The translations under genes and the position numbers were made by a program. 64,000 nt of DNA from an uncultured Clostridia bacterium (GTDB taxonomy: Bacteria; Bacillota; Clostridia; Lachnospirales; CAG-274), in assembly GCA_947632615.1 (NCBI GenBank), contig CANRPW010000007.1, positions 1-64,000 on the forward strand. Direction: 5' to 3'. Every line of letters begins with the position of its first letter. Position 1 is the first letter of the stretch. The notes under the pieces were generated by a model, which was not told the origin of the DNA, ran no database searches, and was given only the letters and a program-made list of their open reading frames with translations. Below are positions 41,020-54,721 of the stretch, piece after piece.

Positions 41020-42354
41020 TTAAGGAGCTATCCTCAGTGTATCTCTTGGGAACATGGAAGCCTGACGTATGTTTGTAAGTCCCAAAAGCTGCATTGTAAA
41101 TCTTTCAAGCCCCAGTCCCAAACCGCCATGTGGGGGTGCACCGTATTTATGCAGCATAAGATAGCTTTCAAAATCATCGGGATCAAGTCCCTTTGCCTTC
41201 ATTTTTTCCACCTGCTCCTTATAGTTATGTATTCTCTGACCGCCCGTAGTCACCTCAAGCCCTCTGAAAAGAAGGTCAAAGCTCAATGTATACTTGGGGT
41301 TTTTAGGGTCGTCCATAGCGTAGAATGGGCGCTTTTTGGTGGGGTAATGTGTTACGAAAACAAAGTCTGTGTCGTAGTCCTCTTTGAAGAGCTTGCCTAT
41401 AAGCCTTTCCTCCTCAGGCTCTAAATCGTAGGGGTCTCTTATTGGTCTGTTGTACTTTTCAGACACAAGCTCCTTAGCCTCTTTAAAGCGTACACAAGGT
41501 ATAGACTCAAACTCGGGCAGCTCTGCCCCAAGCATTTCAATATATGGTGCATAGTTTTCCTTAAGATAGTTAAGGGCAAACTTTATCATACCCGTTTCCA
41601 TATTTATAATGTCGTAAAAACTCTTTATAAAGCCCATTTCAAAGTCAACGCTTATATATTCGTTTAAGTGGCGCATTGTGTTGTGCTTTTCTGCCCTGAA
41701 TACGGGGGCTATTTCAAATACTCTCTCATATACGGGAATAAGTGTCTGCTTATAAAACTGCGGGCTTTGCGCCAGAAAAGCCTTCTTTCCGAAATATTCA
41801 AGCTTGAATATGTTGGAGCCGCCCTCTGCCCCGGAGGACACGATCTTGGGAGAAAATATCTCCGTAAAGTCGTTGCTTTCAAGATATTTTCTAAATCCCC
41901 TTACTAAGCCTTCTTCTAACTTGAATGTGCTTCTTCTTCTCTCGTTCCTGAGTACGATAGGTCTAACAGCTATCTCGTTTTCAAGTGCGATGCTCAGTTT
42001 ATTGTCGCTTACCTTTATAGGAAGCTCTGAGTCGGGCACAGAAATAAGCTCTATTTCAGACACCCTTATTTCAACGCCGTGGGGCGCCTTTTCGTTCTCC
42101 ACAAGGTCTCCCTTCACTCTTATGGAGTTTTCAACTCGGAGTATGTCCTTTTCGTCCTCTGCGCCTGTTTTGTCATATACGCACTGTATAAGACCGTTTA
42201 TTTTTCTCAGCACTATAAATGTAATGCCGCCTATGTCTCTTATGCTGTAGATCGTTCCGTGGGTGTAAATGCCCTCTCTTTCGTCCTCTTTCAGCTTAAG
42301 AATGTCAAAAAGACAAAGGTCTCTTTTGATGTTCTTTCCGTCTGCCATTATCAT
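41020..42354 (-). CDS. aspS: Aspartyl-tRNA synthetase, archaeal/non-discriminating type
   Basis: A 444-aa class IIb synthetase. It is much shorter than bacterial AspRS (~590 aa) because it lacks the GAD insertion, and it matches archaeal-type AspS2/AsnRS-like enzymes. An OB-fold covers residues ~20-110; motif 2 is FEIAPVFRAEKHNTMRHLNEY; motif 3 is GGLGLGLERFTM. Such enzymes usually charge both tRNA-Asp and tRNA-Asn, with GatCAB converting Asp-tRNA(Asn). The neighbouring gat genes support this. The start follows AAGGAGGGATTTAT. Confidence 0.93.
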   Translation of the reverse strand: MIMADGKNIKRDLCLFDILKLKEDEREGIYTHGTIYSIRDIGGITFIVLRKINGLIQCVYDKTGAEDEKDILRVENSIRVKGDLVENEKAPHGVEIRVSEIELISVPDSELPIKVSDNKLSIALENEIAVRPIVLRNERRRSTFKLEEGLVRGFRKYLESNDFTEIFSPKIVSSGAEGGSNIFKLEYFGKKAFLAQSPQFYKQTLIPVYERVFEIAPVFRAEKHNTMRHLNEYISVDFEMGFIKSFYDIINMETGMIKFALNYLKENYAPYIEMLGAELPEFESIPCVRFKEAKELVSEKYNRPIRDPYDLEPEEERLIGKLFKEDYDTDFVFVTHYPTKKRPFYAMDDPKNPKYTLSFDLLFRGLEVTTGGQRIHNYKEQVEKMKAKGLDPDDFESYLMLHKYGAPPHGGLGLGLERFTMQLLGLTNIRQASMFPRDTLRIAP

Positions 42355-42377: not shown

Positions 42378-42635
42378 AAACGCCCTAAGACGTCATTAAT
42401 AAACATCTTAGGACGGAATAACCGTGGTACCACCTAAATTAGCAGTTCCTTCTGCTGTCTCAAGCATTATAACGTATGCTAAACGTATCATCCTACTAAA
42501 ATAAGCTCTTTCGGATGACAGGCTCGGGGGCGTTTTTCTCATTCTTGTATCAATATCGAAAATTTCAGTCTGTGTTTTCGACTCCCTGTAAAGTAACCGA
42601 AGGATACTCTTCCCTTTCGCTGCCTTTATCTTATA
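42378..42635 (-). promoter_or_regulatory. T-box leader of aspS-gatCAB
   Basis: Minus-strand leader with stem I sequences (AGAGTA, CAGGGAG), the conserved T-box AGGTGGTACCACGG at 42435-42422 and a terminator stem ending in seven T residues. It should raise expression when tRNA-Asp or tRNA-Asn is uncharged. The specifier is uncertain: GAT triplets occur on the 3' side of stem I, and no AAC is seen there. Confidence 0.88.
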
Positions 42636-45922: not shown

Positions 45923-46921
45923 TTAAATCAAATCATTCTTGATCATATATTCGGCGATCTGTACGGCATTGGAAGCTGCGCCCTTACGGATATTATCAGC
46001 AACTACCCAAAGGTTTACGCCGTTTTCCACCGAATTATCTCTCCTTATTCTTCCAACATATACCTCGTCTGTGCCTGTTGCATTTATAGCAAGAGGATAT
46101 TCGTCTTTAGAAAAGTCATTCTGAATAACGATGCCGGGAGCTTTTGCAAGAGTCTTAACTACCTCTTCCATAGTAAAGGGCTTTTCAAACTCTACATTGA
46201 TAGACTCGCTGTGTGAGTTAAATACAGGCACTCTTACCGCTGTAGCTGTAACCTTCAGCTTGTCATTGTGGAGTATTTTTCTTGTTTCGTTTATCATCTT
46301 TATTTCTTCCTTAGTATAGCCGCCGTCTGTGAATACATCTATATGAGGAAGACAGTTGTTTGCGATGGGGTGTTGGAACTTCTTGGGAGCTTCTCCCTTA
46401 AGCCCGTTTTCAAGATCCTCCCAGCCTGCTCTGCCGGCGCCCGAAACTGCCTGATATGTTGAGTAAACAACTCTCTTTATCTTGAAAGCTTCGTCAAGGG
46501 GCTTAAGAGCAACGACCGCCTGAATTGTCGAGCAATTGGGGTTTGCAATTATGCCCTTGTTCCACTTAACGTCTTCGGGGTTTACCTCGGGAACTACAAG
46601 GGGAACATCGGGGTCCATTCTCCAAGCGGAGCTGTTGTCAATAACAACGCAGCCGTGTTCTGCCGCTATAGGTGAAAATTTTTCGCTTGTTGAGCCGCCT
46701 GCGGAGAAGAGAGCGATGTCAATGCCTCTGTCGAAAGAATTTTCGGTAAGCTCCTCAACGGTGTATTCCTCTCCGTTGAATTTTATCTTGCTGCCTGCCG
46801 AACGCTTTGAAGCAAAAAACCATATATTCTCTATGGGAAGCTGCTTCTCCTCCAAAACCTTAAGGAATGTTCTTCCTACCATACCTGTTGCGCCTACAAC
46901 AGCCAAATTTACCTTTTTCAT
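45923..46921 (-). CDS. asd: Aspartate-semialdehyde dehydrogenase
   Basis: Makes aspartate semialdehyde for lysine, threonine and methionine. VVGATGMVGRTFLKVL binds NADP, and the catalytic Cys130 is in IANPNCSTIQ. 332 aa. It is 22 bp after the cytidylate-kinase-like gene; no lysine riboswitch is seen in front of it. Confidence 0.97.
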   Translation of the reverse strand: MKKVNLAVVGATGMVGRTFLKVLEEKQLPIENIWFFASKRSAGSKIKFNGEEYTVEELTENSFDRGIDIALFSAGGSTSEKFSPIAAEHGCVVIDNSSAWRMDPDVPLVVPEVNPEDVKWNKGIIANPNCSTIQAVVALKPLDEAFKIKRVVYSTYQAVSGAGRAGWEDLENGLKGEAPKKFQHPIANNCLPHIDVFTDGGYTKEEIKMINETRKILHNDKLKVTATAVRVPVFNSHSESINVEFEKPFTMEEVVKTLAKAPGIVIQNDFSKDEYPLAINATGTDEVYVGRIRRDNSVENGVNLWVVADNIRKGAASNAVQIAEYMIKNDLI

Positions 46922-46943
46922 TTTTATGCACCTCTGTTTAAAA

Positions 46944-47576
46944 TTATTTATTTAACTTTTTAGAAACTATATCACACATTATGTCAGCCGTAGCCTCATA
47001 ACCTATGACGGAGCTGTCTATTATAAAATTATAAAGTGACGAATCTCCCCAGTCTTTGCCTGTATAGTGTCTGAAATAGTCTTTTCTTTCTTTGTCGGTA
47101 TCCCTCATAAGCTTAATGGCTGCCATTTCGTCAAGGTCGTATATCTGCTTTAAAAGCTTGACCTTATAGTCTTCGGGGGCTTTCACAAAAAAGTGTACAG
47201 CCTCCTCCACCTTTGACAGAACTACGTTAGAGCACCTTCCCATTATAACGCAGGAGCCCTCGTACGCCAAAGTCTTAAGGACTTGATTTTGTATGAAAAA
47301 CAGCCTGTCATCCATAGTTATAAAGTCTTTTAAGCCTATAATGCCCTTGCGGCTGCCTCTGAGGGGCTTGCGCAAAAAGCTGTATACAAGATTAGAACAT
47401 CTCTTTTCATCCATCTTGTCAAAAACCTCGACGCCAAGTCCGCTTTCCTCCTCGGCTCTGTTTAAAAGCTCTTTATCGTAAAAGGGTATGCCCAGTCTGT
47501 CGGCAATTATCTGACCTATCTGTCTGCCGCCGCTGCCATATTCTCTGCCTATGGTAATAACGATCTTTCCACCCAT
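46944..47576 (-). CDS. Cytidylate kinase-like family protein
   Basis: A 210-aa P-loop kinase-like protein: VITIGREYGSGGRQIGQIIADRLGIPFYDKEL, with CVIMGRCSNVVL and a lid-like arginine-rich region. It belongs to the Cmk-like group of gut Clostridia, distinct from true CMP kinase. ATG at 47576 follows AAGGAGGTGGCTTTT. Substrate unknown; it is probably first in the operon with asd and dapA. Confidence 0.85.
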   Translation of the reverse strand: MGGKIVITIGREYGSGGRQIGQIIADRLGIPFYDKELLNRAEEESGLGVEVFDKMDEKRCSNLVYSFLRKPLRGSRKGIIGLKDFITMDDRLFFIQNQVLKTLAYEGSCVIMGRCSNVVLSKVEEAVHFFVKAPEDYKVKLLKQIYDLDEMAAIKLMRDTDKERKDYFRHYTGKDWGDSSLYNFIIDSSVIGYEATADIMCDIVSKKLNK

Positions 47577-47856
47577 AAAAGCCACCTCCTTCTTATTAAG
47601 GAAATACCATTTCAAATTATATATATTTTAGCACAATCACGTTATATTAGCAAACTTTTTTTAAAAAATTTCCTAAATATCTCATTCAACATAAAATAAG
47701 CCCTGCACCAAATATATGATATAACTGTATTATATCACGCATTTACCGCTGTGTCTAATATTTATACGGAATAATGCTTTAACCAAACAAAATTTACTTC
47801 TTGACTTATATTCGATTTTTTCCTCATCATTTGCTGAAATTTCAGACTTTATTTGC
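47577..47856. other. AT-rich gap before the small-RNA array
   Basis: About 280 bp of AT-rich DNA with stop codons in all frames beyond short lengths. It should contain the promoter of the minus-strand kinase-like gene. I see no further structured unit, although TTGACTTATATTCGATTTTTT near 47801 resembles the 3' end of a decayed array unit. Confidence 0.4.
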
Positions 47857-47891
47857 TTGACAATGCTGCGGCTTCGGTGTATAATTTTATC

Positions 47892-47959
47892 ATAGTCAAG
47901 ATTGCTTAAGCCCTTGGATGATTGTAGTCCAAGCACACTGAGCATAACTTGACTTTTTT
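47892..47959 (+). ncRNA. Small RNA unit 1 (group AGTCAAG)
   Basis: Promoter TTGACA (47857-47862), 17 bp, TATAAT (47880-47885). The predicted ~68-nt RNA has closing stem AGTCAAG/CTTGACT before TTTTTT and inner hairpin CTTGGAT/GTCCAAG with 7-nt loop GATTGTA. It is nearly identical to unit 2 across the transcript. Confidence 0.7.
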
Positions 47960-48005
47960 CTGTCTTTGTATTGACAATGTTGCCGCTTCGATGTATAATT
48001 TTATT

Positions 48006-48074
48006 ACAGTCAAGATTGCTTAAGCCCTTGGATGATTGTAGTCCAAGCACACTGAGCATAACTTGACTTTTTTT
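48006..48074 (+). ncRNA. Small RNA unit 2 (group AGTCAAG)
   Basis: Promoter TTGACA (47971-47976), 17 bp, TATAAT (47994-47999), 114 bp after unit 1. Same closing stem and inner hairpin as unit 1; ends in seven T. Confidence 0.7.
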
Positions 48075-48123
48075 ATTCTTTTTCAGAAGTAACAACAATT
48101 ATGCTGCCGGAATTTGAAGGCAA

Positions 48124-48152
48124 AATAAAAACGGCAGGATCTCTCTTGCCGC
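48124..48152 (-). terminator. Terminator after tnpV
   Basis: Minus-strand CGGCA/TGCCG stem followed by TTTTTATTTT. Confidence 0.75.
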
Positions 48153-48162
48153 TTTATCAAAA

Positions 48163-48501
48163 TTAATTAAATATAAAATCTCTGAGTATAAAACCTCTGA
48201 CCTCATGTTTTATAAGGTTATATTTGCCGACCCATTCAAACATATCCCTTTTTTTAAGCTCCTCGTTTACACCCTCGATCTCGCACTGCCGCTCTATCAT
48301 ATTTTCCTCCAATTCAAAGGCAAATTTGTCAATGCTTTTAAGATGTTCAAGAAGGGTCCCGCTTTCCACAAGCCGCTTGTAATATTCCGGCTTGTTTTCC
48401 TTTAAAAATTCCTCCCTCGGCACTCCATAGGTCATAGAGGGTGTATAGCTTTCTTCTTCCTCGTCCTCATCAGCAGGATAAATTTCAATATCCAAATCCA
48501 T
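48163..48501 (-). CDS. tnpV: TnpV family transposon-encoded protein
   Basis: A 112-aa protein whose core (FLKENKPEYYKRLVESGTL, then IDKFAFELEENMIERQCEIEGV, then FEWVGKYNLIKHEVRGFIL) matches the TnpV family carried by Clostridial conjugative transposons. An acidic N-terminus (DEDEEEE) precedes it. ATG follows GGGAGGAGATTTT. Function of TnpV is unknown. No transposase, integrase or att site accompanies it, so it looks like a relic or satellite of a mobile element inside the array. Confidence 0.8.
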   Translation of the reverse strand: MDLDIEIYPADEDEEEESYTPSMTYGVPREEFLKENKPEYYKRLVESGTLLEHLKSIDKFAFELEENMIERQCEIEGVNEELKKRDMFEWVGKYNLIKHEVRGFILRDFIFN

Positions 48502-48672
48502 AAAATCTCCTCCCTTCGTTTAAATAATTTCTTTTGCCATTTTCATTATATAATAGGCGTATGTAAAAAAATTTCCGACCCGTAAAACACGGGAAGGCTG
48601 TTCCCAATTATCCCTCCTATAATTTTTACTCGGGTAATTGACATTTTTCAAAATATATGCTATACTATCATC

Positions 48673-48740
48673 ATGGCTGATAAGTGTATCCTCTTGGGGC
48701 GATCAGAGCCCTAAAGAACGGATTATTTTTCAGCTTTTTT
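48673..48740 (+). ncRNA. Small RNA unit 3 (group AGCTGA)
   Basis: Promoter TTGACA (48638-48643), 17 bp, TATACT (48661-48666) with an extended TG. Closing stem GGCTGAT/TTTCAGCT is less regular than the others; inner hairpin GGGC/GCCC with loop GATCAGA; TTTTTT end. Confidence 0.65.
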
Positions 48741-48986
48741 ATTGACTGCTGTTATGCCATTTCTTGCTATATTATTTTCAATATAATTCCTAAATCTGTT
48801 TCTGCCATAAGCTGTTAAAATATTTTTACTCAGGTAATTGACATTAGCAAGAGTATATGCTATACTGTCATCATAGCTGATGAACCTTTTGCGCTTGGGG
48901 AAATCGACCCCTTCGTCGTAAAAGAGTTTCTCAGCTTTTTTAATGTTCAAAGCAAGTAAATTATCCTTTTTTATCTGTTCTGTCAT
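48723..48986 (-). other. Antisense reading frame across units 3-4 (87 codons)
   Basis: The complementary strand carries a frame repeated in most units, with the conserved segment ISYDDSIAYTLENVNY and later SKNILTAYGR. It is open here and in a 51-codon stretch at 49174-49329. Stops break it in units 3, 5, 7 and 9. Some differences among units are synonymous in this frame. It could be a decayed tandem small-protein gene or a by-product of the conserved promoter DNA. Confidence 0.3.
48873..48941 (+). ncRNA. Small RNA unit 4 (group AGCTGA)
   Basis: Promoter TTGACA (48838-48843), 17 bp, TATACT (48861-48866). Closing AGCTGA/TCAGCT, middle stem TTTTGCG/CGTAAAA, inner GGGG/CCCC with loop AAATCGA, then T-tract. 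Confidence 0.72.
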
Positions 48987-49076
48987 ATAATCCCTAAATT
49001 CATCCCGCCCATAAGCTGTTAAAATATTCTTACTTGGGTAATTGACATTTTCAAAAGTGTATGCTATACTGTCATC

Positions 49077-49145
49077 ATAGCTGATGAGTTATTCGGGCGA
49101 GGGGAAATCTACCCCTTTGTTGCGAAGTAATTTATCAGCTTTTTA
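49077..49145 (+). ncRNA. Small RNA unit 5 (group AGCTGA)
   Basis: Promoter TTGACA (49042-49047), 17 bp, TATACT (49065-49070). Closing AGCTGAT/ATCAGCT, middle TTCG/CGAA, inner GGGG/CCCC with loop AAATCTA; TTTTT end. Confidence 0.72.
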
Positions 49146-49275
49146 TTTGTGTACAGATAAAACATTGTTTTCTTCAAACTGTTATATAGTCTGAAAAGCT
49201 TTCCCTGCCATAAGCTGTTAAAATATTTTTACTCGGGTAATTGACATTTTCAAGGGTATATGCTATACTATCATC

Positions 49276-49346
49276 ATAGCTGATGAGTGGATCCTCTTGG
49301 GGCAATTGTAGCCCTAAAGACTGAAACATTTTATCAGCTTTTTTAT
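49276..49346 (+). ncRNA. Small RNA unit 6 (group AGCTGA)
   Basis: Promoter TTGACA (49241-49246), 17 bp, TATACT (49264-49269). Closing AGCTGAT/ATCAGCT, inner CTTGGGGC/GCCCTAAAG (one bulged A) with loop AATTGTA; TTTTTT end. Confidence 0.72.
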
Positions 49347-49476
49347 TGACCGCTATTATGCCGTTTCTTGCTATATTATTTTCAATATAATTTCTAAATC
49401 TGTTTCAGCCATACGTTGTTAAATATAATTAACTTGGGTAATTGACATTTTCAAAAGTGTATGTTATACTACCATT

Positions 49477-49548
49477 ATAGCAGACCACTGTATCGTGTAT
49501 GGACTTGGAATATTGGTTTCCTATGTCTGCGAGCATATCTGCTTTTTT
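49477..49548 (+). ncRNA. Small RNA unit 7 (group AGCAGR)
   Basis: Promoter TTGACA (49442-49447), 17 bp, TATACT (49465-49470). Closing AGCAGA/TCTGCT, inner GGAA/TTCC with loop TATTGGT; seven-T end. Confidence 0.7.
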
Positions 49549-49603
49549 TATTGCCAATATTTTTGTGGTTGACATTTTCAAGGGTGTATGTTATACTATC
49601 ATC

Positions 49604-49676
49604 ATAGCAGGTCACTGTATCGTGTATGGACTTGGAGAATTGGACTCCTATGTCTGCGAGCATATCTGCTTTTTTT
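49604..49676 (+). ncRNA. Small RNA unit 8 (group AGCAGR)
   Basis: Promoter TTGACA (49569-49574), 17 bp, TATACT (49592-49597). Closing AGCAGG/TCTGCT, inner GGAG/CTCC with loop AATTGGA. Versus unit 7, the fourth base pair changes A-T to G-C while the stem is kept. Confidence 0.72.
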
Positions 49677-49730
49677 ATTGCCAATATTTTTGTGGTTGAC
49701 ATTTTAAAGAGTGTATGTTATATTATCATC

Positions 49731-49800
49731 ATAGCTGATAAATAATTCCCCTAGGGGCAATTGAAGCCCGGCAGGTTGAATTATTAAATCAGCTTTTTTT
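49731..49800 (+). ncRNA. Small RNA unit 9 (group AGCTGA)
   Basis: Promoter TTGACA (49696-49701), 17 bp, TATATT (49719-49724). Closing AGCTGAT/ATCAGCT (two A before it), middle AATTC/GAATT and CCT/AGG, inner GGGC/GCCC with loop AATTGAA; seven-T end. Confidence 0.72.
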
Positions 49801-49867
49801 ATTTACTGCTTCTGCATATTCTGAAGTATACAAACCGTTTATGAAAGACATTATTCAGAGGTACTTA

Positions 49868-49918
49868 AAAATAAAAGGCAGCCGATACCCGAGGTTTTAA
49901 ACCATTGTATCGTCTGCC
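49868..49918 (-). terminator. Terminator of the aldo/keto reductase remnant
   Basis: Minus-strand GGCAG-A-CGATAC / GTATCG-G-CTGCC stem followed by TTTTATTTTT, about 30 bp past the remnant's stop. Confidence 0.75.
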
Positions 49919-49945
49919 TGTTATATATTGGAGAATTAAAACTTA

Positions 49946-50170
49946 TTACCAATTTTTCTTTTCTTTTGAACTGTCGTGGTTTGTTTTTCTTTCTTCTACC
50001 ATTTTTGCAAACCATTCTACCATACCCGGATCGTAGTGGGAGAAGAAAGAGCTTGTATTTTTGTCAAGGGCTGTTATTGCAGCCATATCCTCATCAGAAA
50101 GTGTAAAGTCAAACACATTTATATTTTTTGTTATTCCCTCTGTCTGTAAGGCATATATTGTGCAAAATTT
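49946..50170 (-). pseudogene. Aldo/keto reductase, C-terminal remnant
   Basis: About 70 codons with no start read ...ITKNINVFDFTLSDEDMAAI, SFFSHYDPGMVEWFAKMVEE and end at TAA. This matches the last ~60 residues of aldo/keto reductases (NxxVFDFxLSxEDMxAI, then DP.MV.W). The upstream ~200 residues, including the catalytic Tyr and Lys, are absent; the sequence before 50165 is AT-rich non-coding DNA leading to the OPT promoter. A truncated gene at the edge of the accessory island. Confidence 0.8.
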
Positions 50171-50202
50171 TATAAAAATATGTGCGTTTTGAAAATCAAC
50201 TG

Positions 50203-54436: not shown

Positions 54437-54721
54437 TTAGCCGACCAAACTGAGTGTTGCTCGGGGCGAGGGCTCGGCATCAAGGCAATGAGGGGCGGAT
54501 GTATCCGCCCCTCATTGCCTTGATGCCGAGCCCTCGCCCCGACCCGTGGGGGAAAATCCGCAAAACCCGCCTGCGGCGGGTTTTGCGGATTTTCCCCCAC
54601 GGGTCACCGGGGGCAATCAGCCAAAGGGAGCAGCTGCGCTGCTCCCTTTGGCTGATTGCCCCCGGTGGGCAGGCATTTCATATGGCTCCGCTTGCAGCGG
54701 AGCCATATGAAATGTCTGCCC
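54437..54721 (+). repeat. Palindrome element VI (four adjoining hairpins)
   Basis: Boundary motif TTAGCCGACCAAACTG (54437-54452), then four hairpins with almost no unpaired DNA between them: 54463-54540 (38 bp arms), 54541-54605 (31), 54605-54667 (30) and 54667-54721 (25, one mismatch). Hairpins 2/3 and 3/4 share their junction base. It lies between pepD and the third MATE gene on the same strand. Confidence 0.9.

Follow-up and report, generated by a model that had tools for sequence, protein, structure and literature searches.

The window analysed here is a stretch of 64,000 nucleotides from a contig of an uncultured Clostridia bacterium (CANRPW010000007.1). Its plus strand carries nine predicted small RNA units, each behind a promoter-like site, within a short islet. 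Promoters were called by consensus, the source sequences being metagenome-assembled genomes. The features are the following:

47684..50188, no strand: islet of ~2.5 kb that holds TnpV and the array; missing from the syntenic site in the nearest relative, G005
47857..47885, plus: promoter of unit 1 (type A), TTGACA-17-TATAAT (consensus scan)
47891..47959, plus: RNA unit 1 (type A; fold)
47971..47999, plus: promoter of unit 2 (type A), TTGACA-17-TATAAT (consensus scan)
48005..48074, plus: RNA unit 2 (type A; fold)
48163..48501, minus: TnpV (PF14198), transposon-encoded protein, splitting units 2 and 3
48638..48666, plus: promoter of unit 3 (type B), TTGACA-17-TATACT (consensus scan)
48672..48740, plus: RNA unit 3 (type B); minus-strand frame broken by a 1-nt deletion, hairpin intact
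48723..48986, minus: relic coding for a MuF_C C-terminus (..ILTAYGRNRFRNYIENNIARNG..) between units (translation)
48838..48866, plus: promoter of unit 4 (type B; consensus scan)
48872..48941, plus: RNA unit 4 (type B; fold)
49042..49070, plus: promoter of unit 5 (type B; consensus scan)
49076..49144, plus: RNA unit 5 (type B; fold)
49241..49269, plus: promoter of unit 6 (type B; consensus scan)
49275..49344, plus: RNA unit 6 (type B; fold)
49442..49470, plus: promoter of unit 7 (type C; consensus scan)
49476..49549, plus: RNA unit 7 (type C; fold)
49569..49597, plus: promoter of unit 8 (type C; consensus scan)
49603..49676, plus: RNA unit 8 (type C; fold)
49696..49724, plus: promoter of unit 9 (type B), TTGACA-17-TATATT (consensus scan)
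49730..49800, plus: RNA unit 9 (type B; fold)

All nine promoters of a preliminary description were found where it had placed them, as 11-12/12 matches to the consensus with a spacer of exactly 17 bp (TTGACA-17-TATAAT/TATACT/TATATT). They rank top among the 45 sites of at least 9/12 counted in 8 kb, against 20.4±4.6 in shuffled sequences. Behind each of them a hairpin closes on a U-tract, so that every unit has indeed its own promoter and terminator, the distance from the expected start to the U-tract being 69-74 nt throughout. The hairpins, of ~61-66 nt and a predicted fold energy of -18 to -31 kcal/mol, consist of a closing stem that ends in UUUUU and an apical 4-bp stem with a 7-nt loop. 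The loop length and the paired base changes in inner and closing stems had been described correctly, and the latter are genuine covariation. The tandem array of nine units is interrupted by the TnpV gene. The idea that loop or flanks differ per target did not hold either: the loop is the most conserved part and the closing stem the variable one.

Three sub-types were distinguished, A (units 1-2), B (units 3-6 and 9) and C (units 7-8). The loop signature is R-A-N-Y-N-N-A, with A2 and A7 invariant among the stand-alone units of type B. We defined the family by a 7-nt loop of this or a close sequence on a stem of at least 4 bp, a variable closing helix (6 bp or more) with a U-tract, and a promoter with a 17-bp spacer ending ~8 nt ahead of the helix. 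All nine units conform to this definition of the antisense RNA nested in MuF_C genes (see below), unit 7 with the loop UAUUGGU. In agreement with the earlier failure to recognise a family, Rfam release 15 gave no family above its curated threshold at the RNA units, nested or stand-alone. A hammerhead-like motif (CUGAUGA...GAAA) noticed by eye in some type B units is not conserved and was put down to chance.

On either side of the islet, positions 46901-47683 and those from 50189 on can be aligned (~80%) with locus L108 of G005, where only ~98 bp separate them. TnpV also adjoins the stand-alone array of another relative, G001 (locus L049), and the layout is similar in both: two type A units 114 bp apart, TnpV, then a type B (and C) array. 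Elsewhere in the window, a T-box leader (42406-42629, minus strand, 113.6 bits) immediately precedes an asparagine/aspartate-tRNA-ligase-like gene (41020-42354) and gatC/gatA. A C-terminal relic at ~49940-50197 (minus strand), with a weak aldo/keto reductase likeness (12.5 bits, below the Pfam cut-off), sits between the array and an OPT-type transporter gene, and at 54454-54600 ORFs overlapping on both strands contain a small repeat, with the repeated peptide GARARHQGNEGR.

The origin of the units became visible only with homologues. BLAST of one unit over the genus detected it in relatives and at two further places in the genome of the window. The copies on contig C2 of this genome, in G005 and in G008 are embedded, in antisense orientation, in ORFs of integrative elements, which encode topoisomerase III and helicase/methylase polyvalent proteins. 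The position of the nested RNA is always just downstream of the MuF_C domain (PF18819), overlapping the codons right after it. A search over the family yielded 14 MuF_C domains in 8 of 48 genomes, and an antisense TTGACA-17-TATAAT-like promoter of 10-12/12 was present at the same place in all 14. MuF_C belongs to polyvalent phage/ICE proteins and occurs in proteins of hundreds to more than 2000 amino acids; a nested copy has perfect complementarity to the mRNA of its own gene. On the minus strand, each window unit still reads as the C-terminal MuF_C tail (NKEKADxMFxSLGLQxP...SIAYTLENVN or EKSQ...GLQL...NKIIHxSRNIVK); further pieces of the C-terminus are left between units, including the relic at 48723..48986. 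The array thus consists of 3′ ends of MuF_C genes, copied out of them. Over promoter plus RNA, unit 6 shares ~91% identity with the copy nested in MuF_C of G005:C3, and units 1-2 share ~88% with the type A copy in the resident MuF_C gene; unit 8 (type C) has its cognate type in the MuF_C gene of G008:C51. We conclude that a small non-coding RNA is encoded antisense in MuF_C genes of phages, plasmids and conjugative elements, and that the nine units are stand-alone copies of it. The RNA family itself is well supported. Of the earlier proposal of a regulatory or decoy RNA family, the multi-copy RNA family stands, and the derivation from MuF_C genes had been missed.

The family is also wider than the Clostridial frame in which it had been placed. 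Besides Firmicutes, the nested hairpin is hosted by coliphages, a Pasteurella phage, an Acinetobacter plasmid and a plasmid of Verrucomicrobia (Opitutaceae). MuF_C queries from the bacterial family of the window gave few viral matches; coliphage and Pasteurella queries were productive. A literature search found no paper describing an RNA at MuF_C.

A covariance-model search, proposed in the preliminary description together with the Rfam search, was carried out with a model, R1, built from 15 sequences. R1 detected the RNA in 12 of the family's 48 genomes; within the order, two other families have it too. Stand-alone copies, whose counts depend on R1, number 9 in the window, 5 in G001, 3 in G024, and 1 each in G020, G063, G162 and G248; no MuF_C match was obtained in the genomes G001, G024, G063, G162 and G248. 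The window array is therefore one among several stand-alone sets, in which promoters and folds are kept though frames decay.

In E. coli prophages we found an unannotated array flanked by a PerC-type gene and a small ORF, in which up to five tandem hairpins share one TATAAT promoter and one terminator. It shows the same loop as the RNA family (RAYUGRA; here AACUGGA/AAUUGAA/AACUGAA), carried by unrelated, differing closing stems of 10-18 bp. Such loops on stems of at least 4 bp occur 3-5 times per E. coli region, compared to 0.06 in shuffles. Of 5426 E. coli genomes, 114 contain the third hairpin; all 30 places listed are outside MuF_C genes. In six prophage loci (L150, L152-L156) the array stands beside PerC-family and ProQ/FinO-family genes; the latter is an RNA chaperone family, which may be relevant. 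The anti-sRNAs AsxR/AgvB of EHEC prophages were considered and rejected, as their place differs, downstream of PR′ morons (PMC4104026).

Could promoters and hairpins be mere by-products of conserved coding, and the array a degenerate tandem of MuF_C 3′ ends? The tail peptide is conserved, the array pieces still encode MuF_C fragments, and shuffling of synonymous codons by itself reaches 7-10/12 promoter matches. Shuffles based on local codon usage were applied to 25 MuF_C genes, from Firmicutes, the coliphages PhiR5_2, PhiR12_3 and phi296, Pasteurella phage Pmp11, the Acinetobacter plasmid and the Opitutaceae plasmid. The antisense fold was better than in shuffles for 25/25 genes (mean z -3.25, Stouffer -16.3), whereas control windows of the same ORFs (n=797) had a mean z of -0.13 (Mann-Whitney 2e-16). 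An antisense promoter of at least 10/12 was present at 18 of the 25 sites, against 5 of the 797 control windows. Among the 18 Firmicute genome loci it beat the shuffles in 16 (p<0.05), but outside these 18 it did not; gammaproteobacterial and verrucomicrobial antisense promoters are weak (8-9/12) and not significant. The closing helix moreover stays paired while its sequence and the encoded amino acids change. In coliphages, for instance, the helix AGCCGCGA/UCGCGGCU is swapped for AACCCUGA/UCAGGGUU, altering amino acids on both arms. With the helix register picked by eye, all 35 distinct RNAs have standard pairs at the six outer positions of the closing helix, and 4-6 pair types occur at each of these. 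These helix-preserving changes, the shuffle and control-window tests, the base-pair asymmetry described next, selection in frame-broken copies and the non-coding E. coli arrays make a lack of RNA function very unlikely.

The helix might instead work in the sense mRNA, as a frameshift stimulator on an A-tract or as a roadblock. An A-rich run of KK codons does precede the hairpin on the sense strand, and the sense-strand fold has a similar z-score (-2.97). On the antisense strand, however, 13 G-U pairs were counted versus no A-C pair, which indicates that this strand is the folded one. Together with the antisense promoters, the T-tract after the helix and the stand-alone copies that lack the gene, this renders a sense-strand role hardly credible.

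Stand-alone copies were examined in the same respect. Their promoter hexamers were changed at 16/228 positions versus 490/1962 elsewhere (p 1e-11), core pairs were kept in 138/140 cases (null 87.7±5.2) with many double changes, and loop positions A2 and A7 were found in 14/14 units. Selection hence holds the fold, and in Firmicutes also the promoter, beyond the needs of the protein in nested copies, and in stand-alone copies as well, several of which still have an open tail frame.

The nested RNA might act as a cis-antisense regulator of the type I kind, pairing with the 3′ part of the MuF_C mRNA via kissing loops and lowering its translation or stability, stand-alone units doing likewise in trans. 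Gram-positive type I antitoxins overlap the 3′ ends of their toxins, and the full complementarity of nested copies to the mRNA, as well as the likeness of units 1-2 to the resident type A RNA, would fit such a regulator. As many as 27 of the 62 positions nevertheless differ between a stand-alone unit and the nearest MuF_C, while the core pairs are retained, with compensatory double changes, meaning that complementarity was destroyed and the fold kept. The long self-fold disfavours pairing, and the third E. coli hairpin is found away from MuF_C genes at its listed places. We regard this regulator as unlikely. Since fold and loop are kept beyond complementarity, an RNA-protein antitoxin is preferred.

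MuF-C is a PBECR domain, a predicted RNase of polyvalent proteins delivered at invasion, and its phage Mu version is predicted to be inactive (Iyer 2017, PMC5512222). Mu gp30 stops where the RNA-coding tail would begin and lacks the hairpin, a contrast given by one distant protein only, which scores below the Pfam cut-off. A predicted RNase delivered at invasion, and a version predicted to be inactive and devoid of the hairpin, suggest that active MuF_C needs the RNA as an antidote. AlphaFold gave poor models of MuF_C (pLDDT 46 and 56 with 3 and 14 sequences), with which Foldseek matched only phage MuF_C/polyvalent proteins; sequence search of the PDB found no relative of MuF_C, and PADLOC no match.

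The derivation of the units from nuclease genes of mobile elements points to antitoxin or immunity rather than to a host mRNA regulon. Judging from sequence, we give a probability of about 55% to the RNA being an antidote or immunity RNA for the predicted nuclease MuF_C, orphan arrays protecting the host or rival elements. MuF_C, presumably a BECR-fold RNase, would be brought into the cell by polyvalent proteins at invasion. The element would make the RNA constitutively from within the toxin gene, and resident cells would thereby survive the nuclease. We infer that the RNA binds MuF_C, acting mainly as a folded ligand of the protein and not as a perfect antisense. The common signature would be the apical 4-bp stem with the loop R-A-N-Y-N-N-A, and the closing stem would vary with toxin type. 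In Firmicutes, where the RNA has its own antisense promoter, this closing stem doubles as an intrinsic terminator. Stand-alone arrays combining types A, B and C could then provide orphan immunity in trans against MuF_C from other elements.

High copy number, strong predicted promoters, the conserved loop and the genomes without MuF_C might instead reflect a role other than MuF_C neutralisation, such as a decoy of a host RNA-binding protein or RNase, an element cofactor or packaged RNA, or a bait for host RNA-based defence. The nested form is invariably linked to MuF_C (25/25 genes), and we hold such a role to be quite improbable. In coliphages L122-L141 the MuF_C-coding segment is mosaic, with stem types AGCCGCGA / AACCCUGA and several inner sequences in proteins otherwise near-identical. 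This suggests joint type switching of toxin and RNA.

Among known systems, type III toxin-antitoxins (ToxIN, CptIN, TenpIN) share the idea of an RNA antidote, a predicted endoRNase partner and tandem RNA hairpins, as in the E. coli array. Their RNA, which binds and inhibits the endoRNase and is processed by it, is encoded as repeats directly upstream of the toxin gene on the same strand, with a terminator in between, whereas the MuF_C RNA is antisense inside the coding sequence. Its stand-alone arrays have no toxin gene, it shows no recognised pseudoknot unit and no Rfam match, and its partner is a large polyvalent protein. Type I systems (txpA/RatA, bsrG/SR4, ibs/Sib) resemble it by an antisense RNA overlapping the 3′ part of the toxin from its own promoter, which is found in Firmicutes (by consensus only), and by multi-copy orphans, Sib-like. 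Their toxins, however, are small hydrophobic or membrane peptides, while MuF_C is a predicted RNase domain of large proteins. The MuF_C RNA also lies wholly inside an ORF that continues, and is complementary by construction when nested, stand-alone copies keeping fold rather than sequence. In its presumed action the RNA resembles the antitoxins of type III (or type I) and yet belongs to neither type, on account of position and strand in the first case, of toxin kind and an apparent loss of complementarity in the second. LhrC of Listeria is likewise a set of tandem sRNA genes with individual promoters, but it uses C-rich single-stranded anti-SD motifs, whereas the window units have an apical 7-nt loop as their signature and stem from a gene of a mobile element. 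Polymorphic toxin systems have orphan immunity genes that also form detached arrays diversified by type; their module is a protein, that of the window array an RNA. OmegaRNA and HEARO (at tnpB and iscB ends) are structured RNAs that sit within the end of a gene from a mobile element and can be found alone as well, whereas the MuF_C RNA is on the opposite strand, with its own promoter in Firmicutes and no guide segment. The units have the appearance of RNA antidotes or immunity RNAs against the MuF_C domain, in a family not described before.

There may be an even chance that they represent a new class of conflict system, spread over several bacterial phyla, in which the antisense strand of a toxin domain gene encodes an RNA antidote, and antidotes escape as mobile, multi-type orphan immunity arrays into chromosomes and prophages. 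In any case a structured RNA, ranging from Firmicutes to Proteobacteria and Verrucomicrobia, is tied to one predicted nuclease domain, a single stretch of base pairs coding for protein on one strand and for RNA on the other. Should MuF_C be neutralised by the RNA, this would explain how elements survive their own injected RNases, and bacteria would be stockpiling immunity arrays made of RNA, equivalent to orphan immunity genes. As hundreds of E. coli prophages carry copies, the idea lends itself to immediate testing in K-12.

Two observations concern neighbouring genes. Similar small proteins, MAGHSYSPKAHSKATIKYVKKNLDRIEMRV.. (L049, 14169-14402, plus strand; no Pfam hit) and MASHSSSKEARNKAVTKYVKNNYDRISLRF.. 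(L047, 6112-6330, minus strand), lie beside the RNA array and near a MuF_C gene respectively, and are possibly ribbon-helix-helix-like partners. At L046 (7538-8022, minus strand) a RelE/ParE-like toxin and antitoxin-like pair, read from the sequence, shares its integrative element with two MuF_C genes.
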